DNA from: a virus
IMG/VR virus record: IMGVR_UViG_3300044799_000355
Span: 1-23,501 of that record
Length of the DNA: 23,501 nt
Reading direction: 5' to 3' (one strand)
Shown here: positions 2,131-23,441 of the stretch, one piece after another
Position numbering within the stretch: position 1 is the first letter of the stretch
Layout of the letters: every line of letters starts with the position of its first letter
Notes under the pieces: model-generated
Database searches by the model: none
Seen by the model: only the letters and a program-made list of their open reading frames with translations
What the model was told of the DNA's origin: nothing
Position numbers and translations under genes: made by a program

Positions 2131-2500
2131 AGCTATAGGCGATAATTCCTTTCAAGAGATGCGATTTTATACAAATATTCTTAATGATGGAGCTCCCGGG
2201 TTAGGTGATCTTCTGGGCGCTCCAAAGCCCGATTATTGGGTGGCTATGATTACTGGATATGATAAAAAATATGGATATTCGCGACAATTTTTAAGGGGCA
2301 AGAAGGATTATAAAAAATCAAACTCAGTTGGCTCGCGTGGTATTTATTTATTCTATTTATTGGATTCTGGTTATATTTATGAAGTAAGCCAACCAATAAC
2401 ATGGCAAAAGACTAGAAGATATTATTGCACTGTAATAGATGATGGTGAAATTATTGAGATCGGAAAGGATTTGGTTGATCAATGGGTAAAAGATCATTAG
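2108..2500 (+). CDS. Unknown protein of the IbrAB-type cassette
   Basis: A 130-residue protein I do not recognise. It is rich in Tyr and Gly, with alternating short strands in the C-terminal half (GIYLFYLLDSGYIYEVSQPI, then YYCTVIDDGEIIEIG), which suggests a small mixed alpha/beta or beta-barrel protein. There is no signal peptide or membrane segment. It overlaps the upstream gene by 23 nt and the IbrA-like gene by 19 nt, so it is embedded in a tightly packed operon and is likely a functional companion of its neighbours. A GGGG stretch lies about 9 nt before the ATG. No catalytic motif is evident. Confidence 0.75.
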   Translation: MKASLKIEAIGDNSFQEMRFYTNILNDGAPGLGDLLGAPKPDYWVAMITGYDKKYGYSRQFLRGKKDYKKSNSVGSRGIYLFYLLDSGYIYEVSQPITWQKTRRYYCTVIDDGEIIEIGKDLVDQWVKDH

Positions 2501-3696
2501 GAATCAATGTGCTGGATGCAGCCAAAGAACGAATAATCTATACGTTTGACCAATTTCCACGCATTTATGTTTCATTCAGTGGCGGAAAAGACAGCACTAT
2601 TATGTTACATTTGGTCATGGATGAGGCAATTAGGCGTGGGCGCAAGGTTGGAGTATTATTTTTGGATTTAGAGGGTCAATATAAATTAACAATCGATCAT
2701 ATTCAAGCTATGTATAATCTTTATGCTGAACACATCGATCCTTATTGGATAGCTCTTCCGATCCACTTGCGCAATGCTGTAAGCATGTATCAGCATCATT
2801 GGATCACATGGGAGCCGGGAAGAGAGAATATATGGATCAGAAAACCACCAGAAATAGCAATAATTGATCAGAATTATTTCCCTTTTTATAGATACAAAAT
2901 GGAATTTGAGGATTTTGTATCGGCATTTGGACATTGGTATAGCCAAAATAAATTATGCGCATGCTTTGTTGGTATTCGCACCGGAGAAAGCCTCAATCGT
3001 TGGCGAACTATTGCATCTACCAAAAAGCAAACCATCGATGGATATAAATGGACCACATGGGTCGGCGAAAGTCTCTATAATATTTATCCGATCTATGATT
3101 GGATTGAAACAGATCTGTGGATTTATCACGGTAAAACCGGCAAACCGTATAATAAACTTTATGATCGGATGTATCAGGCTGGATTAACACTCCATCAAAT
3201 GCGCATCTGCCAGCCTTATGGTGATGATCAACGTAAGGGATTATGGTTATTTCATTTGATAGAACCTGAAACATGGGCGCGTATTGTAGCACGTGTAAAT
3301 GGAGCTAATAGTGGAGCTCTCTATGCAAAGGAAAGTGGTAATATTTTGGGAAATCTACGAATCAGTAAACCAGAAGGGCATACATGGCAATCTTTTGCTG
3401 AATTATTGTTAGAGAGCCTTCCGCCAAAAACAAAAGAACATTTCAAGAATAAAATAGCGGTATTCATCAAATGGTATCAAGATAGAGGATATCCGAATGG
3501 GATACCCGATGAAAGGCCATATAAACAAGAAGCAGCCAGAGAGGTACCATCATGGAGAAGGATATGTAAAATGCTCCTAAGAAATGATTATTGGGCTAAA
3601 GGCATTGGTTTTAGCCAGCATAAAACAGCAGCCTATGAAAAATATTTGAAAATCATGAAGAAACGGAGGCAGCAATGGGGAATATATCCTCCTTGA
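2482..3696 (+). CDS. ibrA: IbrA-like PAPS reductase-family (PP-loop) protein
   Basis: A 404-residue protein of the phosphoadenosine-phosphosulfate reductase/PP-loop ATP-pyrophosphatase superfamily. The PP-loop SGGKDS sits at residues 33-38 and should bind the nucleotide pyrophosphate. Further family landmarks are CFVGIRTGESLNRWRTI (161-177) and YPIYDWIETDLW (202-213). The length matches E. coli IbrA, about 400 residues, and the downstream gene is an IbrB-like protein, so the pair matches the IbrA/IbrB arrangement. In E. coli this pair is known to activate expression of prophage-borne immunoglobulin-binding (eib) genes; the biochemical mechanism is not established to my knowledge. The C-terminal 150 residues are basic and could bind nucleic acid. 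It overlaps the preceding gene by 19 nt and the next by 22 nt. Sulfur chemistry on nucleic acid is possible but speculative. Confidence 0.9.
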   Translation: MGKRSLGINVLDAAKERIIYTFDQFPRIYVSFSGGKDSTIMLHLVMDEAIRRGRKVGVLFLDLEGQYKLTIDHIQAMYNLYAEHIDPYWIALPIHLRNAVSMYQHHWITWEPGRENIWIRKPPEIAIIDQNYFPFYRYKMEFEDFVSAFGHWYSQNKLCACFVGIRTGESLNRWRTIASTKKQTIDGYKWTTWVGESLYNIYPIYDWIETDLWIYHGKTGKPYNKLYDRMYQAGLTLHQMRICQPYGDDQRKGLWLFHLIEPETWARIVARVNGANSGALYAKESGNILGNLRISKPEGHTWQSFAELLLESLPPKTKEHFKNKIAVFIKWYQDRGYPNGIPDERPYKQEAAREVPSWRRICKMLLRNDYWAKGIGFSQHKTAAYEKYLKIMKKRRQQWGIYPP

Positions 3697-4328
3697 TATG
3701 TTCTATAACCGATAAATTCCGCAAGTTAATACCAGAAATACAGGAATTAACTGATGAAGATCGTGTAGAGGCCATTAACCAAATCAAGATTATGTTACAT
3801 GAAATTAGTCCGATGCGCAATGAACCGGTTGATTGTGTTATCTGGGTCCCAATTGATACCGTACAGGCAAACGATTATAATCCAAACCTGGTTGCTCCAC
3901 CAGAAATGCGTCTATTGGAATTAAGTATCGCTGAAGATGGCTATACTCAGCCAATTGTTACCTGGCAGGATAATGGACACCGTGAGGTTGTAGATGGTTT
4001 CCATCGTAACCGCATTGGCAAAGAAAGCAAAAAGATTCGCGATAGAATCAAGGGATATTTACCTGTTACCACAATCAACGATGATCGCACTGACAAAGGC
4101 GATAGGATTGCGGCCACTATCCGACATAACCGAGCTCGTGGAAAACATCTGGTGCAGGGTATGAGCGATGTCGTTTTAGAATTAAAACGACGTAATTGGA
4201 CAGATGATAAAATATGTAATAAATTAGGGATGGATCCTGATGAGGTATTAAGATTAATTCAAATCCAGGGACTTGCCGAAATGTTTGCTGATCAGGAATT
4301 TAGTGAAGCATGGGAAATTGATTTATAA
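3675..4328 (+). CDS. ibrB: IbrB-like ParB/sulfiredoxin-fold protein
   Basis: A 217-residue protein with the ParB-N/IbrB fold. Diagnostic segments in order are NDYNPN (66-71), EDGYTQPI (87-94), VDGFHR (106-111, at the place of the GERR-type nucleotide motif of ParB), ATIRHNRARGKH (147-158), an HTH-like stretch LGMDPDEVLRL (184-194), and FSEAW (209-213). This pattern is typical of IbrB, the partner of IbrA. ParB-family folds bind and hydrolyse CTP or act on DNA; which applies here is unknown. The ATG at 3675 has GGAGG five nt upstream (3665-3669) and lies within the end of the ibrA-like gene, which indicates coupled synthesis. The stop codon TAA overlaps the stop of the convergent lysin gene in the palindrome TTATAA (4323-4328). 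Confidence 0.9.
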   Translation: MGNISSLICSITDKFRKLIPEIQELTDEDRVEAINQIKIMLHEISPMRNEPVDCVIWVPIDTVQANDYNPNLVAPPEMRLLELSIAEDGYTQPIVTWQDNGHREVVDGFHRNRIGKESKKIRDRIKGYLPVTTINDDRTDKGDRIAATIRHNRARGKHLVQGMSDVVLELKRRNWTDDKICNKLGMDPDEVLRLIQIQGLAEMFADQEFSEAWEIDL

Positions 4329-5027
4329 ACTTTCGATCCTGCTATACTCCCTCATCCCCACATTCACCGCAAACCACCAGAAACTACTCCTGGCCCAGAT
4401 ATCCCCATTATTCATCGCCCTGATCTCATCCACCGCGATCGGCGGACAGGTCATATACATCACCCCATAAATCGTCGATGATATCATCGGCGCTGACCTC
4501 ATATTGACCCCGCCCAGCATTTTAGCCGTCTTTTGCCCCTCTACCACTGGTGGGAGAGGGGTTAGGGGTGAGGGCCTGGCCAAAAAAAACAACAACGGAT
4601 TAACATATCCCTTATACCCGCTGGAATCCGCTTTCTCCTTTTTCGGGTCCTTCAATCCCAGGTACAGGTGCGTCCCGGTGGCATAGCCCGTCGCTCCCAC
4701 CGTCCCGATCACATCGCCGGCCTTCACCTTCTGCCCCAGCTCGACGATGATATCCATCAGATGCGCATAATATACCCACCAGCCATTCGGCAGCAGCCCC
4801 CGGATATAGTTTCCATACCCCTCATCCTCGAAACCGACTTTGTTTATCCTGGTATCGCATACCGACAGCACCACATCCCCGGCCCAGCCCGCAAAATCAA
4901 TCCCATTATGGCCAGGGTACGACCAGCCCGGATGCAGGCTCACATCCTGATACCAGGCCGCATTCTCCCCATAATACTGCGTAATGGTGATCGGCTCTCT
5001 TACCGGGTAAACCAGCCCCAAATCCAT
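4323..5027 (-). CDS. M23-family peptidase with SH3-like tail (phage lysin)
   Basis: A 234-residue protein, last gene of the late operon. Residues about 10-145 form a lysostaphin-type M23 metallopeptidase domain: GHNGID gives the zinc ligands His40 and Asp44, and YYAHL gives His89. The usual HxH is HLY (120-122), so the last histidine, normally a zinc ligand, is Tyr. The enzyme may be inactive, use another ligand, or act as a binding module. Residues 151-165 (RPSPLTPLPPVVEGQ) are encoded by a dispersed repeat that sits in frame as a linker. Residues 167-225 look like a bacterial SH3 domain (GGVNMRSAP...IWARS). The position after a holin-like gene suggests peptidoglycan degradation at lysis. 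A tail-tip lysin is an alternative. Confidence 0.85.
   Translation of the reverse strand: MDLGLVYPVREPITITQYYGENAAWYQDVSLHPGWSYPGHNGIDFAGWAGDVVLSVCDTRINKVGFEDEGYGNYIRGLLPNGWWVYYAHLMDIIVELGQKVKAGDVIGTVGATGYATGTHLYLGLKDPKKEKADSSGYKGYVNPLLFFLARPSPLTPLPPVVEGQKTAKMLGGVNMRSAPMISSTIYGVMYMTCPPIAVDEIRAMNNGDIWARSSFWWFAVNVGMREYSRIESL
4535..4576 (-). repeat. Family A dyad repeat, copy 1 (inside the lysin gene)
   Basis: Arms GCCCCTCTACCA / TGGGAGAGGGG are followed by the tail TTAGGGGTGAGGGC. It lies entirely within the lysin coding sequence and is translated as residues 151-165, between the peptidase and SH3-like domains, without disrupting the frame. Confidence 0.85.
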
Positions 5028-5052
5028 TATCTAATCCTCGTCTTTTCTATTT

Positions 5053-5160
5053 CCCCTCTCCCATTTTTTATGGGAGAGGGGCCAGGGGTGAGGGCGTTTT
5101 CCCCTCGCCCTTAGCGGTGGGATTTATCCCACCTAAGGGAGAGGGGCCAGGGGTGAGGGC
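5053..5160 (-). repeat. Family A dyad repeats, copies 2 and 3 (tandem)
   Basis: Copy 2 (5053-5095) has CCCCTCTCCCAT / ATGGGAGAGGGG arms plus the tail CCAGGGGTGAGGGC. Copy 3 (5101-5160) carries the same outer arms with an inner palindrome GGTGGGAT-TT-ATCCCACC and the same tail. They fill the gap between the holin-like and lysin genes. Confidence 0.9.
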
Positions 5161-5163
5161 ATC

Positions 5164-5208
5164 TCCTGGCCAGGGGTGAGGTTAGCGGGGTGATTAATCC
5201 CCCCTTTA
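5164..5208 (-). repeat. Family A repeat fragment, copy 4
   Basis: The tail CCAGGGGTGAGG is followed by the inner element TTAGCGGGGTGATTAATCCC, without the outer arms. It appears to be a rearranged or partial copy abutting copy 3. With copies 2 and 3 it makes a repeat block of about 155 bp between two lysis genes. Confidence 0.7.
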
Positions 5209-9636: not shown

Positions 9637-9698
9637 CTCCCCTCTCCCTTAGCGGGGGGATTTATCCCCCCTTTGGTAAAGGGGTCGGGGGTGAGGGC
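9637..9698 (-). repeat. Family A dyad repeat, copy 5
   Basis: CCCCTCTCCC arm, inner TTAGCGGGGGGAT / ATCCCCCC palindrome, a degenerate closing arm GTAAAGGGG, then the tail TCGGGGGTGAGGGC. It occupies the gap between the tape measure gene and the Dit-like gene. Confidence 0.85.
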
Positions 9699-9713
9699 AT
9701 TTCACCTTACATA

Positions 9714-11963
9714 TTAATATCTCTTGCTCTTGAGCATCTCGCCTAAACTGCTGCCCTGGCTGCCCTGGATGACGATAGGCGCATAAAACACGTAGCTCTC
9801 GCTGTTTTGCACCCTGGATATGCCTGCTCCGGCAAATGTTGGCGATAACCCCAGTCCCATTCCATTGGTGCCTCTCATGGCCTCGGCTATTGCCTGCTCT
9901 ACTCGCCCTAGTTCTCGTATAAACCCGATTCCCAGGCCGCTCGCCATGTTTTTACCTATGTTGGCAAACACTTTCGATGGAGAATCGATGCCGAGGATGT
10001 CCCAAATGTCGTCTATGATGTCTTGGAACCAATCCAATAGCTGGTTATAGAACCACCAATATTTGGATTGCATGCCGCTCCATAATCCCATCACTATGTT
10101 GACCCCTGCCGCTTCTATTTCTCCAATTTTTCCCGTTATTCCACTTATAACAGATTGCGCCAGATCCCTTGCGGTTTCATAAATGAGTTGACGATTTTGC
10201 CATAATCCATCCGCCAGCGCTTTGATGATATTGATCGCTGCCCTGATTATGGATGGGATGGATGTCAATAATGCGTTATACATGGCCAGTTCTATCCTCG
10301 CAAACGCCGGCACAAAAACAGGTATGGCCTTGACCAGGCCATCGGCCAGGGCATTCAGTAATTTCATGGCTGCATCTACCAGCATGGGTATATTTTGGAT
10401 CAATATCTCCACGATTTTCATGACCACTTCGATGATCGCCGGGATCAGCTTCGGCAGGGCCTCTGATATACCGTTTGCCAGCTCTACGATGATCTGTATC
10501 GCTGCTTCTACCAGTTTGGGCAGTTGGGGTAATATCGCATCTACCAGGGATTTTATGATTTCGATGCCGGCGCGCATCAGGATCGGTATATTCTGGATCA
10601 GGAAATCCACCAGGCTGTTGATGATAGCCACCGCCGCCGGGATTATGGTCGGCAATGACGTAATGATTGCATTGATAATGCCTTGTACGATCGCTAATCC
10701 GGCCTGCAGCATCTCCGGCGCCTTGGCGGCAATGTCTGTGGCAATCCTTGAGAATAAGCCGGTCAATCCTTCTGCCATCTTTCCAAAATCGCCGCCCGAG
10801 CTCTGTACGATCCCAACCAGCTCCTTGAGATATCCGCTGGCCGTATCCACGATGCCGGAAAAAGCCGGCAGGAACATCGTGCTGATCGTCATAGCCATGC
10901 CTCCCAACCCTTTTTTAAGCCCTTGTATCTTATCGTCGAATTCGGCCGCTGCCGCCACGGCCTCCCCGCTCATTACCGCGCCCATCTCGTGCGCTTCTTT
11001 GGTCAATTTTGCCATTTCGCCGGCCCCGGCTTCGATGATCGGGTTCAGTTCCTGGGCCGACTTCCCCAGTATCGCCATAGCCAGCGCATCCCGTTCGGTC
11101 TCATTAGGTATTTTGCCGAGCGCCGTGATCACGTCCGAAAATACGGCTTCGGAATCACGTAGGTTTCCTCCCGAATCGGTTACGGATACCCCCAGCGCCT
11201 TGAATGCATCTGCCGCATCGCCGGTTCCCCCGCTCGCGGATGACATGGAACGGATCATTTTACTCAGCGATCCGGTGATCGTATCCAGGTCTGTGCCGAC
11301 CTGATCGCCGACGTAAGCCAGTTCCTGCAATCGTGTGGTGCTGATGCCTGTTTTTTTGGATAGATCCTCGAGCTCTCCGGCCGTATCGGCCGTTTTGAGC
11401 ACCATGCCGGCAACCGCCACGCCCACCCCAACCACCGCCGCCGCTAATCCCGCCACTGCAGCCACGCCAACTTTCATCGCCGATCCAAGTCCGCCTGCCA
11501 CGTCCCTCAGAGTAATTAGTTTATCCTTGGAAATCTTGCTCTTTTCCCCCAGGTCTTCGACTTTATCCCCTGTTTTACTGGTCTCGCTGCCGGCATCTGC
11601 CAGGGCCTTGTCTGTGTTGCCCAGCTCGACCTGCATCTTATTGAGCGCTTCGGTCTCTTTGTTTACCTTGATCTGCATGTCCTGCGCCGCTTTGGATCCT
11701 TCCCCATGTACGGCGACCATGCGCTCATATTCACCCTGCAAAGCATTGACCTTTTTACCCTGCAGGTCGATCTCCTGGTTCAGCGCCTTTGTACGCATTT
11801 CCAGCCCGCTGGCGTCTTTGGCCCAATCTCCCAGCGCAGCCGCGCTGGACCGGAATCCGCTCTCTACTACCCGGATCTCGCGGTTCAATGTTGATACCGC
11901 CGTCTTGAAATCGGTGGTATCTAATCCAATTTTTCCGCTTAAGCTGGATACCTGGTCGCTCAT
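9714..11963 (-). CDS. Tape measure protein
   Basis: A 749-residue tail length ruler, extended inside the tail tube and released on infection. Residues about 20-130 are a coiled coil. 163-189 is a strongly hydrophobic Ala/Val/Gly segment able to span a membrane. 195-390 is a TP901-type core (GELEDLSKKTGISTTRLQELAYVGDQ). About 400-620 is a run of similar hydrophobic units of the type LPxLIxAAIxIIxxLxxxI. The C-terminus carries DIWDILGIDSPSKVFANIGKNMASGLGIGF-like sequence, seen in many tape measures. At about 1.5 angstrom per residue the tail would be of order 110 nm (a general rule, not measured). The ATG overlaps the stop of the frameshifted GT product as ATGA (11960-11963). Confidence 0.93.
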   Translation of the reverse strand: MSDQVSSLSGKIGLDTTDFKTAVSTLNREIRVVESGFRSSAAALGDWAKDASGLEMRTKALNQEIDLQGKKVNALQGEYERMVAVHGEGSKAAQDMQIKVNKETEALNKMQVELGNTDKALADAGSETSKTGDKVEDLGEKSKISKDKLITLRDVAGGLGSAMKVGVAAVAGLAAAVVGVGVAVAGMVLKTADTAGELEDLSKKTGISTTRLQELAYVGDQVGTDLDTITGSLSKMIRSMSSASGGTGDAADAFKALGVSVTDSGGNLRDSEAVFSDVITALGKIPNETERDALAMAILGKSAQELNPIIEAGAGEMAKLTKEAHEMGAVMSGEAVAAAAEFDDKIQGLKKGLGGMAMTISTMFLPAFSGIVDTASGYLKELVGIVQSSGGDFGKMAEGLTGLFSRIATDIAAKAPEMLQAGLAIVQGIINAIITSLPTIIPAAVAIINSLVDFLIQNIPILMRAGIEIIKSLVDAILPQLPKLVEAAIQIIVELANGISEALPKLIPAIIEVVMKIVEILIQNIPMLVDAAMKLLNALADGLVKAIPVFVPAFARIELAMYNALLTSIPSIIRAAINIIKALADGLWQNRQLIYETARDLAQSVISGITGKIGEIEAAGVNIVMGLWSGMQSKYWWFYNQLLDWFQDIIDDIWDILGIDSPSKVFANIGKNMASGLGIGFIRELGRVEQAIAEAMRGTNGMGLGLSPTFAGAGISRVQNSESYVFYAPIVIQGSQGSSLGEMLKSKRY

Positions 11964-12486
11964 AACCAGTTCACCTCATCACAATATGTTGTGTTTGCTA
12001 AACCGGGCGCTATTTCGCTTTTGTTCCTCTTCCATTTTGGATAATGAAAGATGAATGGCAACAGGCTCTCCATATTGGTCTCGTCTATCTCCTGCAGGCT
12101 CCAACCGAACAGGTCCACCAGTTGGCATTCCAGGTCTAATACCCAATCTCCTGTGTTCTCCGGGGTTATTTCCCCGGTGGGGTAGGGTTTGCGGGCAGCA
12201 AACCACCTGCCTTGGCCACGATCATATTCAAGATCGTCACCATTTCACCCAGGTCTGCGCCGTTGTTCAGATCCTCGATCGAGAATTGATTGCCAAAGGC
12301 GTCTACTACCAGCCCGGCCAGCGTATCGATGTCTTCTTCTTTCAGATCGTCTTTATCGAAACCTCTCGCCAGCTTGATCGCCCGTTTCATGATGCCCCAC
12401 GGGATGATCGACCTGGAGTACGTTCCTTTTACCTCGTCCTCGTTGCCGTATAGCGTGATTTGTATCGGAGTGCCTTCTCTTGGCAT
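11960..12486 (-). CDS. Tail assembly chaperone GT, made by -1 ribosomal frameshift
   Basis: The product begins as chaperone G (ATG at 12486), reads 101 codons, slips by -1 on A_AAC_CCT (12184-12190), then reads 74 codons to the TGA at 11960-11962, giving about 175 residues. The -1 frame encodes a sensible conserved-looking domain (GDWVLDLECQLVDLFGWSLQ ... FHYPKWKR), of the sort found in gpT-like extensions. Its stop overlaps the tape measure start in ATGA. Siphoviruses commonly make G and GT in a fixed ratio to load the tape measure protein during tail assembly. Neither alternative frame gives such a plausible protein. The frameshift is inferred from the signal and frame content and is not shown experimentally. 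Confidence 0.85.
12160..12190 (-). promoter_or_regulatory. -1 frameshift signal: slippery heptamer plus hairpin
   Basis: On the minus strand AAACCCT (12190-12184) is read A_AAC_CCT in the zero frame, matching X_XXY_YYZ. A 6-nt spacer (12183-12178) precedes a hairpin CCGGGG (12177-12172) / CCCCGG (12165-12160), whose 6-nt loop contains the zero-frame stop TAA (12168-12166). Spacer length and stem position are textbook for stimulating -1 frameshifting. Confidence 0.85.
12166..12486 (-). CDS. Tail assembly chaperone G (zero-frame product)
   Basis: A 106-residue acidic protein, mainly helical, between the major tail protein and the tape measure gene. This is the position of gpG-type tail assembly chaperones. 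The pattern IIPWGIMKRAIKLARGFDKDDLKEEDIDTL...FGNQFSIEDL resembles the small chaperones of Gram-positive-type siphoviruses, which coat the tape measure protein until tail tube polymerisation replaces them. The ATG at 12484-12486 follows an AAAGGA site. Translation normally ends at TAA 12166-12168 inside a hairpin, and a fraction of ribosomes is predicted to shift into the GT frame. Confidence 0.87.
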   Translation of the reverse strand: MPREGTPIQITLYGNEDEVKGTYSRSIIPWGIMKRAIKLARGFDKDDLKEEDIDTLAGLVVDAFGNQFSIEDLNNGADLGEMVTILNMIVAKAGGLLPANPTPPGK

Positions 12487-12504
12487 AGTTCATTCCTTTT
12501 CATA

Positions 12505-12610
12505 TCCCCTCTCCCATTTTCCATGGGAAATGGTTAGCGGTGGGATTTATCCCACCGGGATGAAGTTTTCCCCTCTCCTGCTTAGGCGGGAGAGGGGTTG
12601 GGGTGAGGGC
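12505..12610 (-). repeat. Family A dyad repeats, copies 6 and 7 (tandem)
   Basis: Copy 6 (12505-12564) has a CCCCTCTCCCATTTTCCATG arm that is degenerate and the inner GGTGGGAT / ATCCCACC palindrome. Copy 7 (12569-12610) has CCCCTCTCCTGC / GCGGGAGAGGGG arms and the tail TTGGGGTGAGGGC. They lie between the major tail protein and tail chaperone genes, where levels of neighbouring products must differ greatly. Confidence 0.85.
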
Positions 12611-12632: not shown

Positions 12633-13559
12633 CTACGCCGCAGTTGCAAAATCTTTGGTCACGTCGGCCAAAAGCTGGCCATAGATATCGGTCACACCTG
12701 CCAGAACGGTCAGATAGGTTTTACTGGCCGTCAGATTGTCATCAGGATTGAGCGTAACGGTCTTTTTGTCGGTCGATAGTGTCTTGGTGCAGGCGATCGA
12801 AGCATAGGTATCAGAGCGCACCAGGCTGATGTTGTTGACCGAGCTGCTCAGCAAGGCATTGTTGAACACGAGCACGATGTTGACACTGACCAACTGGTTG
12901 GAAGCTCCATCGGCCGGTGTGATCGAAGACAGTGCGATCGGCGAAGGCGATGCCACGTCTGGCGTCTGTACCTGGCTGAACCAGGTGTCGCCATCGAAAT
13001 CAAGGGTATCTTCGTCGCCCACGACCCGCTTGATGCTGTCGTTGATGTCGCCCAGGTCGAATACGTAGATGGTTTTGATCGCTGTATATTTGATCTGGAT
13101 CGTTTTCGGCGCCGGGCTGTCGGTTTTGCTGGCCTTATCCTCGCTGGGCATGTCGAACCGCCCTTTGAGGAACTGGTAATAGCGATAGCTTCCGTTCGAT
13201 TTTTGCGATCGGAAAGACAGGGCGAAGTACGGCGGTGTGCCGGTATTATCGTACATCCGCCCGGTGGTGGGATCGAACTCGCGCCCGCAAAGCTTCGCCA
13301 GCATCTCCAGCGGGATGTTGGTCACCGTCAGGCTGATGGTCGTTTCCCCTTCGCTGCTCATCGCGTCGAAGGGCTGGTCATCGGCATATTGTGTCTGCCG
13401 GTTTACTGCCGCCTCCTGCGAGGCCTCCACCGCCGGGGCAAAATATTCTGGTGTGTCGGCCACATAAGCATCGGAATCGTCTTGCGTAACTTCGGCGATG
13501 TACAGGTCTTTTAAGCCGACTGCGCTCCTGTACTCACCTGAATCGATTGTGAGAGCCAT
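12633..13559 (-). CDS. Major tail protein with C-terminal Ig-like domain
   Basis: A 308-residue tail tube subunit. Residues 1-205 match a phi13-type major tail protein: an N-terminal VGLKDLYIAEVTQDD segment, SSEGETTISLTVTNIPLEMLAKL (tube strand pattern), and KASKTDSPAPKTIQIKYTAI. Residues about 212-308 form a bacterial Ig-like (Big_5/SbsA type) domain, ITPADGASNQLVSVNIVLVF...KKTVTLNPDDNLTASKTYLTV...YGQLLADVTKDF. Such domains project from the tail surface and are thought to bind weakly to cell-surface glycans. The start has an AGGAGGT ribosome site, the strongest in the region, which suits an abundant structural protein. Position between the tail terminator and chaperone genes agrees. Confidence 0.88.
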   Translation of the reverse strand: MALTIDSGEYRSAVGLKDLYIAEVTQDDSDAYVADTPEYFAPAVEASQEAAVNRQTQYADDQPFDAMSSEGETTISLTVTNIPLEMLAKLCGREFDPTTGRMYDNTGTPPYFALSFRSQKSNGSYRYYQFLKGRFDMPSEDKASKTDSPAPKTIQIKYTAIKTIYVFDLGDINDSIKRVVGDEDTLDFDGDTWFSQVQTPDVASPSPIALSSITPADGASNQLVSVNIVLVFNNALLSSSVNNISLVRSDTYASIACTKTLSTDKKTVTLNPDDNLTASKTYLTVLAGVTDIYGQLLADVTKDFATAA

Positions 13560-13571
13560 ATTTTTAACCTC

Positions 13572-13913
13572 CTAGTTTAGATATACATAATCGAGCGCCA
13601 GGCCGAAATGACCTGTCTCTTGATCGTAAGGTAATTCTCGTTCTGGACCTTTTACAAATCCGGCTGCTTTCATGGCGCCATCCACGTCCGGCAGTTCCAC
13701 CAATCCGTTGTGGCTATACACGGAGATCTGCACCCGGTATGACCTCGCCGTTTCGTCATCGTCGGCATGCTGTTCCGCCACGCCGGATATCAGTGTAGCC
13801 ACCAGGTATAGATCGGGTAAAGTGTCGCCCGTCTCCAGTAGATAAAGATTTTCGGCGTATGGCACATTCAGCGTTGCCAGGGCGTCATCTATCTGCTCGA
13901 AGATAGTCGTCAT
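13572..13913 (-). CDS. Tail terminator / tail completion protein
   Basis: A 113-residue protein between the HK97 gp10-like gene and the major tail protein gene, the standard place of the tail terminator that caps the finished tail tube and joins it to the head. The sequence begins with a helix (TTIFEQIDDALATL), followed by alternating strands (YLVATLISGVAEQHADDDETARSYRVQISVYSHN) and an ending FGLALDYVYLN. This fits the gpU/gp17-like alpha-beta fold, although no diagnostic motif is present. ATG overlaps the upstream stop as ATGA (13910-13913). Assignment rests mainly on gene order and size. Confidence 0.72.
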   Translation of the reverse strand: MTTIFEQIDDALATLNVPYAENLYLLETGDTLPDLYLVATLISGVAEQHADDDETARSYRVQISVYSHNGLVELPDVDGAMKAAGFVKGPERELPYDQETGHFGLALDYVYLN

Positions 13914-14305
13914 AAAACGCCCGCCTTCTTCAACTTCTCACGCTGTGCCTTGCGTGCTTTGGCTTTGTCTTCATCGAAAGCTGGCCGGATGTAAGGCTGC
14001 GCCGGTGTATGCGCCGAGCCATATTCCTGGACGTTACCATAGCGCGCTGTTTCCGCATCGGTCTTTCTGGGCATGCCCACTTCGATGTAATGGAAATTGC
14101 CATCAACTTTTGGCTCGGTGCGCTCCAGGTGTTCGGCCAGGTTTCCTGTCTTCCGTGGTACCCGCCTCAACATCCCATCCAACAGCACGTCGCCCCCGGC
14201 AATGTTGGCCTGGTCGGCCGCTGCGTCCACGTCATGCCCGGCTTTGGCGATCAGCTCCAGGTATTCTTCGAACCCTTTTAGGCTAAAATTTGCCCTGCAA
14301 ACCAT
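13910..14305 (-). CDS. HK97 gp10-like head-tail joining protein
   Basis: A 131-residue protein of the HK97 gp10 family. The family signature is in the C-terminal half: VPRKTGNLAEHLER (54-67), the strand HYIEVGMPRK, and EYGSAHTPAQPYIRPAF (95-111), where the conserved GSxxxPAQPYIRPAF stretch is clear. The C-terminus is Lys-rich. Members act at the head-tail interface or in tail completion. It overlaps its upstream neighbour by one nt (TGATG) and its downstream neighbour by four (ATGA), so it is translationally embedded in the connector block. The exact structural role varies between phages. Confidence 0.88.
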   Translation of the reverse strand: MVCRANFSLKGFEEYLELIAKAGHDVDAAADQANIAGGDVLLDGMLRRVPRKTGNLAEHLERTEPKVDGNFHYIEVGMPRKTDAETARYGNVQEYGSAHTPAQPYIRPAFDEDKAKARKAQREKLKKAGVL

Positions 14306-14658: not shown

Positions 14659-15458
14659 AGCTCCTCCACCGACACCAAATAGGCTTTATACCAATTGGCC
14701 GATAGATCGTCCGTAGAAACTTGTTGGATCTGGTCCTTCACCGTGATCACGTCCTCGAAATCTTCAGATTGGTCCCCGCTGACGCCGACCAATCCCACCA
14801 GCGTCGAAACCGTATCACCCACATTCGCGCCGCTCAGCACACACGCCCCGGCGCCGTTTAGACCGAAGAAATACAGATAACTCATCGCTATTACCTCCAG
14901 TTGCACCAGCGCCGCCGACAGGCCAAAGCTCAGCGTCGCCAACCCATTGGCCACCATCGCCGGGTTTTCATGCCACATCACCAACAACATTCTGGCCGCT
15001 GCCTTCGCCTCCGGGCGGATCGTATCATCCGCCGCCCAGTCGTGACCGGTAGCCATTTTGATGTAGGCGTCTATCTGCGGCAGCAACATCAGCATATTAT
15101 CGTCATCTATTTCGCAGCGTAAAACTGCAGCTGCTTCCTCGGTGGTCAGAATGTTCGTTCCCGCCGGTGATTGCCAGGCCGATCCGGTTACCTCATAGAT
15201 GAGATTTTGCTGGTCAACTCCCGTTCCGGTGACTTTGATAGCCAGCGGTCCTGCCATATCTGTCTCCGTAGCCGTAAGGTTATAGCTGTACCAACCACTC
15301 CCGATTTCCTCTTTTGTGCCAACGCCGGCCGCAAATGCGCCGCCGTTTTTCGAGATGGACAGCGAATATCCGCTTCCCAATCCGGTAACTTCCACGCCTG
15401 ATGAATCGAGCAGAACGAAGGAAATTTTTTGAGCCAGATTCAACGCCAGATTGTTCAT
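14655..15458 (-). CDS. Head-tail connector (gp6-like) with extra N-terminal beta domain
   Basis: A 267-residue protein. Residues about 100-190 match the phage gp6/QLRG-type head-tail connector: LTTEEAAAVLRCEIDDDNMLMLLPQIDAYI, then the helices AAARMLLVMWHENPAMV and LSFGLSAALVQLEVIA. This ring sits below the portal. Residues 1-95 form an additional beta-sandwich-like domain (KISFVLLDSSGVEVTGLGSG...GSGWYSYNLTATETDMAGPLAIKVTG) similar to modules in phage adhesion or baseplate proteins. Residues 200-267 are an acidic extension. The protein is much longer than plain connectors (about 100 residues). The start is in an ATGA overlap (15455-15458), and the ribosome site AAGGG lies next to a repeat that encodes the end of the upstream gene. 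Confidence 0.8.
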   Translation of the reverse strand: MNNLALNLAQKISFVLLDSSGVEVTGLGSGYSLSISKNGGAFAAGVGTKEEIGSGWYSYNLTATETDMAGPLAIKVTGTGVDQQNLIYEVTGSAWQSPAGTNILTTEEAAAVLRCEIDDDNMLMLLPQIDAYIKMATGHDWAADDTIRPEAKAAARMLLVMWHENPAMVANGLATLSFGLSAALVQLEVIAMSYLYFFGLNGAGACVLSGANVGDTVSTLVGLVGVSGDQSEDFEDVITVKDQIQQVSTDDLSANWYKAYLVSVEEL

Positions 15459-16591
15459 TTATTTTCCCTTCTCTCTTCTCCCTTCTCCCGCTTTTTGCGG
15501 GAGAAGGGCTGGGGATGAGGGCCTACCTTAGCCAACGCCTTCTTACCACCTAGCGCGGTCGTCAATTTGTCATACTCGCCCAAGTAATTTATATTCTCAT
15601 GGAAAATCCCCAGTTGTGCGCCGGTGTCGTATGCCAGTTTTCCATATTCCAGCAGAAATTGGCGCAGTTGGTTGAGCGCCTCATTGCGCCCGGTTTGTTT
15701 CCAAACGTTCCAGACGTATTCTGCTTTTCCGCTGGCTTTGAACATCTTCTCTCGCACGCCCTCCCCGTCTTGCTGCGCTTGAGCGGAAGTCCGCTCGAAT
15801 TCCTGGCGTGAGATCATGTTGCTTCGTTTGCTGTAGCGTTCGGCTTCCGCCAGCACTGCCGCAGTCTCACCGGTTGCCAGCGCTGCCAGTTCAAAATCGC
15901 TGGTTAGCCTGGCCACGGTCCCAAAATCGTTTTTATACATCGCATCGTCAATTTTTTCTTTGATTCTCGTCAGCGCCAGATCGTTTATCTTCCACGCTTT
16001 ATCGTGGATGGCGGCACGTTGCTCGAAAAATTCTTTACCAATCTGTTTCTCGCCCTCGTATCCATAAATTGGCTGCTCGAATTCGTCTTGCCAACAGCAT
16101 AGTTTTAGATTGATTCCCTTCCCATGCGCAAATCCGATCCAGTAGGCATAATTGATCGCCTGGTATTGGTACTCGGTATTGCTGGTTAGCTCACTACCAT
16201 ATAGGCTGATGTCTGTGTAGCCCAGGTAGATTGCCAGCGCCAGGGCCATAGCCGGGCTGGATCGTAGATATCTATAGGGAATCTGTGCCAGCACCCCTTC
16301 GATGGGATAAGTTACCGAGTTTGGCACTCGCTCATCCGCTTCGATCATGTAGATTTTCTTACCGGGATGCTCTTGTTGTAACCAGGCCCAATGCTCCTTA
16401 TTGTTCCAATTTTCGAGGCTGGTATATACTTCCTTTTTGTGCATCTGTAAACATATGTCCCAACGCGGATATTTCTCTGGCGCCTGTGGAGCTTCATTGA
16501 ATAGCCAGATTTCCACATTTGGGTCGTCCCAGGGGACGAGTTCACGCCCCCTGGGATTGCTGCCCACTATTGCCAATGGGCGGTCTATCAT
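15455..16591 (-). CDS. MptE/DUF115-like Rossmann protein in the head module
   Basis: A 378-residue protein. Residues 1-180 look like the DUF115/MptE-like Rossmann superfamily, which includes motility accessory proteins and sugar- or pterin-nucleotide enzymes: LAIVGSNPRGRELVPWDDPN with a Gly-rich turn, VEIWLFNEAP, SSPAMALALAIYLGYTDISLYGSEL (130-154), and INYAYWIGFAHGKGI. Residues 185-350 are a helical coiled-coil region rich in Glu, Ala and Lys. The enzyme reaction is unknown; modification of capsid or host sugars is one possibility and a scaffold-like role for the coiled coil is another. Residues 357-371 (GPHPQPFSRKKREKG) are translated from a family A repeat, so the C-terminal tail was replaced or extended by repeat insertion. 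TGATG overlap upstream, ATGA downstream. Confidence 0.7.
   Translation of the reverse strand: MIDRPLAIVGSNPRGRELVPWDDPNVEIWLFNEAPQAPEKYPRWDICLQMHKKEVYTSLENWNNKEHWAWLQQEHPGKKIYMIEADERVPNSVTYPIEGVLAQIPYRYLRSSPAMALALAIYLGYTDISLYGSELTSNTEYQYQAINYAYWIGFAHGKGINLKLCCWQDEFEQPIYGYEGEKQIGKEFFEQRAAIHDKAWKINDLALTRIKEKIDDAMYKNDFGTVARLTSDFELAALATGETAAVLAEAERYSKRSNMISRQEFERTSAQAQQDGEGVREKMFKASGKAEYVWNVWKQTGRNEALNQLRQFLLEYGKLAYDTGAQLGIFHENINYLGEYDKLTTALGGKKALAKVGPHPQPFSRKKREKGEERRENK
15480..15522 (-). repeat. Family A dyad repeat, copy 8 (inside a coding C-terminus)
   Basis: CCCTTCTCCCGC / GCGGGAGAAGGG arms with the tail CTGGGGATGAGGGC. It encodes residues 357-371 of the MptE/DUF115-like protein and lies just before the ribosome site of the connector gene. 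It differs from the other copies by A substitutions (AAGGG arms, GGGGATGAGGG tail). Confidence 0.85.
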
Positions 16592-18463: not shown

Positions 18464-19651
18464 CTAGATTAGAATCTTCGCTTCACAGCGCAGGCGCTCT
18501 ACCTCACGCTGATATTCCTCGTTTTCCGGGAATTGGGTTTGTATAGGCGGATCAATGACCCGCCCTTCCGAAATAAAGGTTTTCCTAACCTCTTCCGGTA
18601 CGTGCGCATAATTTCTGAGTACCGCGTTCGCTGCTTCCGCCCGTCGCGCTTCGATCTCGGTTTTCGTCCAATGCCTGCCAGGCGCCATATTGACGTAAGC
18701 TGCCTGGTTGCTGATAGGCACACCCGGCGCGCTGATCACCTCATCCGCAAATTTTAGATCCACCGCCTGGCGCGCCGTCATCCATGTTTCGTCGCTCATC
18801 ATGTGCCCCAGGCGTGCCTTACTCATTCCGGTTTTGTTCATATAAGAGTCCAGGATCCCGTCTTTGATCGTTTCCAGCTCGTTCAGCAGGCCATATAGGT
18901 CATCGATGTTCAGGCAGGCGAAACAAAAACTGACTATTGGATCGTGGATCATCATATAGGCCGATTCCTGCATCAGCAGCCGCTTACCGGATAAGGCCAC
19001 GATCGTAGCCGCGCTCGCTGCGATGCCATCCACCCGCACCGTCACGTATCCGGGATAATCCAGGATGATCGCCCGCATCATTGAGGCAGCAAACACATCA
19101 CCGCCATAGGAATTAAGTTTGATCAAGACCGGTCGCCCATTGCCATACTTATACAGATCGTCCCGGAACATTTTCGGCGTTATATCGTCCTCGAACCAGG
19201 AATATTCCGAGATAAACCCGTACAGCTCCATCGTGGTCTCTTCGTCCCCATCGCCGTTGATCACGTTCGTGAAGCTCCAAAACGGCTCGTGCGGCTTGGC
19301 ATTTCCTTCGATACACCGTATCGGTTGCTTGTAGGGGCGGGTCTTTGACCCGCCCTGGGGCACCGATCCGCTTTCCACATTCTCATCGCTCGCCTGGTCT
19401 TTGGGGATCCCCAATATCAATGAAACCGAATCCTTTACGATGACCTGAGTGCGGTAATCGAATTCACTATCATCCGGGTCGTATTGCCGCCACCGCCATT
19501 GTGTCTCAGTTTCATCGAGACCGTCGTCGTAATAATCGTGGCTTTTTATCCACTTCCTCGAGCTGGCCTTGGTCCAACCCGCCTCTTTTTCAAAAACCAC
19601 CGATTGCGTGTGTTCTTTACCCGTTTCGGCTTTTCTTCCAACTTCAGGCAT
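18464..19651 (-). CDS. ClpP-type (S14) prohead protease with repeat-derived insertions
   Basis: A 395-residue maturation protease. Residues 15-80 form an N-terminal prohead-associated domain (AGWTKASSRKWIKSH...TETQWRWRQYDP...DYRTQV). Residues 138-310 form a ClpP-fold serine protease with Ser213 in DGIAASAAT, His236 in MMIHDP and probably Asp287 in MSDETWMTARQAVDLKFADE. It should cut the capsid delta domain during head maturation. Two segments are encoded by dispersed family B repeats in frame: residues 99-108 (QGGSKTRPYK), between the two domains, and 362-371 (EGRVIDPPIQ), near the C-terminus. Residues 325-344 (GRHWTKTEIEARRAEAANAV) match the N-terminal motif of the small terminase. The GGAGGT ribosome site lies within the end of the portal gene, with an 8-nt overlap. 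Confidence 0.9.
   Translation of the reverse strand: MPEVGRKAETGKEHTQSVVFEKEAGWTKASSRKWIKSHDYYDDGLDETETQWRWRQYDPDDSEFDYRTQVIVKDSVSLILGIPKDQASDENVESGSVPQGGSKTRPYKQPIRCIEGNAKPHEPFWSFTNVINGDGDEETTMELYGFISEYSWFEDDITPKMFRDDLYKYGNGRPVLIKLNSYGGDVFAASMMRAIILDYPGYVTVRVDGIAASAATIVALSGKRLLMQESAYMMIHDPIVSFCFACLNIDDLYGLLNELETIKDGILDSYMNKTGMSKARLGHMMSDETWMTARQAVDLKFADEVISAPGVPISNQAAYVNMAPGRHWTKTEIEARRAEAANAVLRNYAHVPEEVRKTFISEGRVIDPPIQTQFPENEEYQREVERLRCEAKILI
18541..18566 (-). repeat. Family B repeat, degenerate copy (inside protease gene)
   Basis: GTATAGGCGGATCAATGACC followed by CGCCCT aligns to the other two family B copies with a few changes. It encodes residues 362-371 of the protease. The GGCGG / CCGCC arms pair. 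Confidence 0.65.
19331..19356 (-). repeat. Family B repeat (inside protease gene)
   Basis: GTAGGGGCGGGTCTTTGACC followed by CGCCCT. The arms GGGCGGGTC and GACCCGCCC pair perfectly. It encodes residues 99-108 (QGGSKTRPYK). I know this repeat type as widespread in Chloroflexota and some other genomes. Confidence 0.85.
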
Positions 19652-21054: not shown

Positions 21055-21150
21055 TTTCATTCGTTCAATCCGTTCCTGCTAAGCAAAGTATTTTGTTTTC
21101 CCCAGCTGGGGAAAATCGATTATCTTTGCATATATAACCTTTGCCTCTCT

Positions 21151-21208
21151 CCCCTCTCCCGAAGGGGGGATAAATCCCCCCTTCGGGAGAGGGGCCGGGG
21201 GTGAGGGC
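21151..21208 (-). repeat. Family A dyad repeat, copy 9, perfect 21-bp hairpin
   Basis: The arm 21151-21171 (CCCCTCTCCCGAAGGGGGGA plus T) is the exact reverse complement of 21174-21194, with only AA between. The tail CCGGGGGTGAGGGC follows at 21195-21208. It is the most intact copy in the window and stands between the large terminase and the portal-side genes. In RNA it would form a very stable hairpin. Confidence 0.92.
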
Positions 21209-21229
21209 CTTCCCATTTCACCTCATCAC

Positions 21230-22979: not shown

Positions 22980-23441
22980 TCAAGAATCAAACGTGTCATT
23001 AAATTTATCAACACGTTTTTCTGCCTTCCGTTTTGCCAGTCGTGCCCTTCCGCCCGGCGTCAGTCCCAGCTTGTCCGCGTACATGGCCATGATTCGAGCC
23101 CAGGCCTGCAGCTCCTTCACCTTGTCCGGATCCGGCTCCGTCTGTTTCGCCAACGCCTTGCTGGCCCTTCGGTACTGCACATAAGCGTCGCAGTACACAG
23201 CCAGCATTTCCGTATCCAGGTTGTCCAGCAGGTCGATGCCCTTCAACCGGTATCGCACCTGGCGCCATACACCCCGCGCCTCTGCGCTTAACCATTTCGG
23301 CGCCACCAATGTGACTTTGCTTTTGCGCCTCATGCTCTCTGCTGCCGCCCGTCGCTCTTCGACCTCGGCCTTCGTCCAATGCTTCCCACCGGCTTTGCCG
23401 CCGGGTGTCATCATGTTTGCGGATATGGTTTTGGTTGGCAT
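22980..23441 (-). CDS. terS: Terminase small subunit, P27-type
   Basis: A 153-residue DNA-recognition subunit that selects the packaging site and regulates the large subunit. Residues about 42-130 follow the P27 family pattern: KVTLVAPKWLSAEARGVWRQVRYRL, then the helical DLLDNLDTEMLAVYCDAYVQYRRASKALAK and ELQAWARIMAMYADKLGLTPGGRARL. This includes the LGLTPxxRxRL ending typical of the family. The basic N-terminal segment contains GGKHWTKAEVEERRAAAES (18-36), matching a stretch near the C-terminus of the prohead protease. The ATG at 23439-23441 lies 3 nt after the stop of the upstream ORF; the ribosome site AGGT is weak, so coupling is likely. Confidence 0.92.
   Translation of the reverse strand: MPTKTISANMMTPGGKAGGKHWTKAEVEERRAAAESMRRKSKVTLVAPKWLSAEARGVWRQVRYRLKGIDLLDNLDTEMLAVYCDAYVQYRRASKALAKQTEPDPDKVKELQAWARIMAMYADKLGLTPGGRARLAKRKAEKRVDKFNDTFDS

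Follow-up and report, generated by a model that had tools for sequence, protein, structure and literature searches.

The window, as we call the whole stretch of 23,501 nucleotides analysed here, is a 23.5 kb virus record whose terminase, portal, ClpP-type protease, capsid, major tail protein and tape measure genes lie on the minus strand. A tail assembly chaperone gene, G, is located between the genes for the major tail protein and the tape measure protein, as in a lambda-type G/GT pair, and is followed by a second reading frame, T, in the -1 frame. The features of this region are given below in the order in which they are read.

12633..13559, minus strand: major tail protein, the upstream neighbour (phrog_88, E 1.2e-41)
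12166..12486, minus strand: G, zero-frame tail assembly chaperone of 106 aa; start ATG 12486-12484, stop TAA 12168-12166
12184..12190, minus strand: slippery heptamer A_AAC_CCT, in phase; shared without change by 28 of the 31 non-redundant loci
12178..12183, minus strand: 6-nt spacer ACCCCA, read from the sequence; in most relatives the stem begins about 5-8 nt past the heptamer
12160..12177, minus strand: hairpin CCGGGG-AAATAA-CCCCGG, probably stimulatory, whose loop contains the zero-frame stop; from folding z-scores and covariation
11960..12183, minus strand: T, the -1-frame C-terminal extension, with 74 aa beyond the shared Pro; stop TGA 11962-11960; conserved domain in 31 of 31 loci
9714..11963, minus strand: tape measure protein (PHROG tape measure, E 3.5e-51); its start overlaps the T stop (ATGA)

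G matches the Pfam family Phage_TAC_19 (PF23857; E 7.4e-14, 52.3 bits against a cut-off of 27 bits), as do its counterparts in all nine relatives scanned, which places it in a family of tail assembly chaperones. Its AF2 model has a pLDDT of 83.5, and the best structural matches are predicted phage proteins, some of them annotated as tail assembly chaperones; among solved structures in the PDB, no match at E <= 0.001 was found. After the shared proline, the -1 frame runs for 74 residues (YPTGE...NWL) up to the stop that overlaps the tape measure ATG (11963-11961), and the predicted GT junction peptide spans ANPYPTGE / ANPYPTGEITPENTGDW. Comparison of the window T with Pfam and PHROG gave no significant match, and none to a named T family, and the prediction of its structure has a low pLDDT of 64. 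The +1 frame also holds an ORF, as the original prediction had pointed out while doubting its content; it is 75 aa long (11979-12206) and has no Pfam or PHROG match.

Several other elements of the window were recorded along the way. Several copies of a palindromic REP-like repeat (TTAGCGGTGGGATTTATCCCACC and GGGAGAGGGG..GGGGTGAGGGC) lie at 4549-4575, 5041-5165, 5182-5204, 9638-9703, 12494-12609, 15468-15522 and 21148-21213; most are at the borders between genes, others inside genes or at gene ends. One of the copies is met by the C-terminus of a 378-aa protein without a Pfam match inside the head module (15455-16591, minus strand). A 53-nt repeat with 85% identity lies in the ClpP-like gene (18628-18680) and in a small gene upstream of the terminase (23336-23388), both copies encoding a similar HWTKxExExRRAxA segment. 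Outside the tail module, the plus strand carries a gene for a PAPS-reductase/DUF3440 protein followed by one for a protein with weak, below cut-off similarity to ParB_N (2482-4328).

The final codons of G are GCA AAC CCT ACC CCA CCG GGG AAA TAA, in which A_AAC_CCT (12190-12184) stands in X_XXY_YYZ phase and is the sole in-phase heptamer of this type in the gene. The hairpin downstream consists of the stem strand CCGGGG (12177-12172), the loop AAATAA (12171-12166) and the stem strand CCCCGG (12165-12160), all on the minus strand. These coordinates bear out the original prediction of a G stop in the loop of a 6-bp hairpin and of a -1 frame of 74 codons ending in ATGA; the distance of 6 nt that it gave is correct from the heptamer to the hairpin and incorrect for the zero-frame stop, which comes 15 nt after the heptamer. 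In-phase X_XXY_YYZ motifs of any kind occur once per ~256 codons in the window, and one would fall by chance within the permitted region of ~26 codons in about 10% of cases. Thus, the signal for a frameshift from the single genome is weak, and it is the comparison across relatives that settles the predicted frameshift at the level of sequence.

Relatives were collected by two routes. A search with the major tail protein gave 10 loci, nine of which extend to the chaperone region, and in all nine a T-like domain is found in the other frame. A search with a T alignment gave 33 viral and four genome loci, the latter in Anaerolineae or other Chloroflexota MAGs. Removal of near-duplicates left 31 loci (the window and 30 diverged ones), with one further locus, L022, in which G and T share a frame, counted apart. 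The GT fusion and the terminase yielded no useful relatives as direct queries, and tblastn found no match to T in isolated phages. In the tree of loci, the median end branch is 0.53 and AAACCCT is present on both sides of the midpoint root. The hosts of these viruses are probably Chloroflexota bacteria, an assignment that for the window itself comes from the related loci, some of which lie in Chloroflexota MAGs. Some relatives carry additional genes next to T: L009/L017/L047 and L011/L016 have, between T and the expected tape measure position, an extra ORF (VLVFCPTY...) that by eye looks like a glycosyltransferase, and L005/L024 have between T and the tape measure gene an ORF (STKGFEEYLERIVAAGKDIDAAA...) that by eye resembles window 13910-14305 and HK97 gp10-like tail components.

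T lies in the -1 frame relative to G in all 31 non-redundant loci. Over the 2377 codons of T in these loci, the -1 frame contains no stop, against 110 in the zero frame and 119 in the +1 frame. The original prediction had looked to relatives both for stops in the -1 frame, none of which interrupts T in the 31 loci, and for conservation of the heptamer and stem, both of which are kept in position across highly diverged relatives. AAACCCT is found in 28 of the 31 loci, CCCAAAT in one, and the imperfect GGACCCT in the two members of one clade (L018 and L019), where P-site re-pairing would be poor. The exceptional CCCAAAT locus (L016, C_CCA_AAT) has a sister, L017, whose CCCAAACCCT contains C_CCA_AAC and A_AAC_CCT as overlapping in-phase motifs, and a similar in-phase overlap, GGGAAACCCT, is present in L020 and L049. 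In raw counts, uncorrected for the shared ancestry of what are deeply diverged loci, the base 5' of AAC is A in all 28 AAACCCT loci, closing eight different codons, while A makes up 15% of third positions in G; likewise, the slip-site proline codon is CCT in 28 of 28, while CCT accounts for 4 of the 60 Pro codons in G. In L030, the -1 frame is shut directly 5' of AAACCCT and the zero frame ends 9 nt past it, and because both frames close around the heptamer, a shift in this locus is confined to AAACCCT. These patterns indicate that T is under selection at the protein level and the heptamer under selection at the nucleotide level. A Shine-Dalgarno-like motif shortly upstream of the heptamer, of the kind that stimulates -1 frameshifts of the dnaX type, was seen in 13 of 31 loci, compared with 6.6 +/- 2.7 in control windows, an excess confounded by a conserved A-K-A peptide.

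Folding of the 45 nt that begin 3 nt past the heptamer was compared with dinucleotide shuffles in the 31 loci, and nearly all of them fold better than their shuffles. The mean z is -2.4, with 26 loci below -1 (Wilcoxon p 1.3e-8) and the window itself at -1.8, and neighbouring windows fold less well (median rank 0.011 for the segment); a few loci (L023, L046) have a weak hairpin or none. The stem sequences vary, from CCGGGG/CCCCGG in the window to TCCCATCTCC/GGAGATGGGA in L013, CTCCGGA/TCCGGAG in L032 and CCGGCTG/CAGCCGG in L030, and in many loci the zero-frame G stop lies inside the hairpin. Across 10 loci with similar hairpins, the stem columns covary: pairing holds in 95% of cells, and there are five double changes, a count reached in 1 of 500 shuffles; this subset was picked for similar geometry, which makes the count supportive and not independent. 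Within the same subset, sliding one arm by a single column lowers pairing from 95% to 55-60%. A conserved hairpin is thus present downstream of the heptamer, with a putative stimulatory role.

Lambda slips on GGGAAAG, and the heptamer at the present locus is AAACCCT. Lambda G/GT, which has counterparts in many dsDNA tailed phages, otherwise shares with this locus the position between the major tail protein and the tape measure, a -1 shift late in G, toward its 3' end, and an overlapping T that is read in the -1 frame (PMC5009743). Further differences are that in many of the present loci the G stop falls within a conserved hairpin and that T here has no significant match to a named family. In systems of this type a stimulatory RNA structure downstream is frequent and not obligatory, GT is made at a low level, and both products act in assembly and do not enter the virion. 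The order major tail protein, G, T in the -1 frame and tape measure also recurs in distant Firmicutes phages, in modules linked to this locus through similarity of the major tail protein or G (Butyrivibrio Arian, Parageobacillus NIIg3.2, phi105 and Paenibacillus Wanderer). Their heptamers are different: AAAAAAC in Arian and Wanderer, and an in-phase GGGAAAG in the overlap of NIIg3.2; in phi105 G, no in-phase X_XXY_YYZ was found. The T proteins of NIIg3.2 and phi105 show weak similarity at the WxxxxIDExDI region (hhalign probability 23-32%).

The G/T pair is almost certainly a lambda-type G/GT tail-chaperone -1 frameshift, in which the slippage itself, how frequent it is and the role of GT are inferred. 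The majority of ribosomes would read G through to its stop, while a minority would pause at the hairpin when AAC is occupied by tRNA-Asn and CCU by tRNA-Pro; both tRNAs would then slip back by one base, re-pairing with AAA and CCC, and reading would enter T to give a GT protein of 175 aa. Lambda G forms a coat on the tape measure, and lambda T makes contact with the major tail protein (PMC5009743); by analogy, G would play the same coating role here and the T part would recruit the major tail protein. The slip would set the G:GT ratio, which on the lambda analogy would matter for tail assembly.

A variant of this explanation is that the slip involves mainly a single tRNA, tRNA-Pro on the A-site C_CCU, with P-site re-pairing from AAC to AAA barely needed. 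In an E. coli survey, C_CCU is among the six tetramers that are shifty with a strong stimulator and ranks fourth among tetramers (PMC4066793), and L018 and L019 retain CCCT behind GGA. This variant is nevertheless unlikely, given that the invariant A before AAC persists while the codon it closes varies, so that P-site re-pairing seems to be selected, and that L016 has lost CCCT and carries C_CCA_AAT instead. Translation of T as a separate gene from its own start, by internal initiation or by termination-reinitiation near the G stop, would suit the tight packing of tail genes and the GTG or TTG codons in the T frame of L013, L020, L024 and L032. It is very improbable and was rejected on start codons, since no ATG, GTG or TTG was found before the conserved core of T in the window and in most loci; it also leaves the conserved AAACCCT, and the A before a variable codon, unexplained. 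The in-frame locus counts against it as well: in L022 (IMGVR_UViG_3300027740_000020, 1632-2174), G and T form one open frame of 181 aa without AAACCCT. Still less probable is slippage of RNA polymerase, i.e. transcriptional realignment giving a mixed mRNA population, with the same protein output as ribosomal slippage; known cases use long runs, of over 7 A or over 8 T (PMC3711429), and it was rejected on run lengths, the runs in the heptamer being at most 3 bases, while the conserved hairpin 5-8 nt past the heptamer fits a ribosome. Finally, the window is a metagenomic contig, and a frame break by sequencing or assembly error, or in a decayed gene, may be considered, a reading virtually eliminated by conservation of the same -1 relation in 31 diverged loci from many samples.

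The fusion in L022 indicates that the G and T parts can act as one protein, and in that phage either GT alone would be made or G would be made in another way.

The G/GT frameshift is ordinary in kind and well known in tailed phages; the unusual part is the heptamer. In the E. coli survey, A_AAC_CCU was among the 64 X_XXZ_ZZN motifs tested and is absent from both the high-efficiency list and the 21 motifs used for gene searches; CCN A-site codons were on average less shift-prone than AAN and UUN, and A_AAC_CCA remained below threshold even with a strong pseudoknot (PMC4066793). AAACCCU has been proposed, as a putative site in a single sequence, near a stop codon with downstream structure in a toti-like virus, an insect-associated dsRNA virus without homology to the phage locus (PMC7150801). 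As a slip site of a tail chaperone, AAACCCT is unusual and strongly conserved, and its novelty is provisional. Tail frameshifts were originally surveyed by Xu, Hendrix and Duda (2004); in the open-access text searched, we found no phage tail gene described with AAACCCT.

The host tRNAs offer one possible reason for this choice. The tRNA-Pro(GGG) carries A32/U38, and among 60 genomes from the class to which a related MAG, G003, belongs, this detection pattern found it in 46, and not in G003 itself. With tRNA-Pro(GGG), a slip from CCU to CCC would turn a G-U pair into G-C, which lends plausibility to the A-site half of the slip. We raise, tentatively and as a possibility more doubtful than not, that this Chloroflexota phage lineage settled on A_AAC_CCU because moving from CCU to CCC gives the host tRNA-Pro(GGG) one more Watson-Crick pair, so that a motif weak in E. 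coli is usefully slippery there. If this is true, the rules for slippery sites would be host-specific.

In annotation, T is missed by gene callers in this group because it mostly lacks its own start codon. A slip site that places CCU in the A site, kept for so long, questions the A/U preference of the usual heptamer consensus, and its naturally diverged forms are on offer for testing slippery rules beyond E. coli. Moreover, the in-frame fusion of G and T in L022 is a natural test of whether a separate G is always needed.
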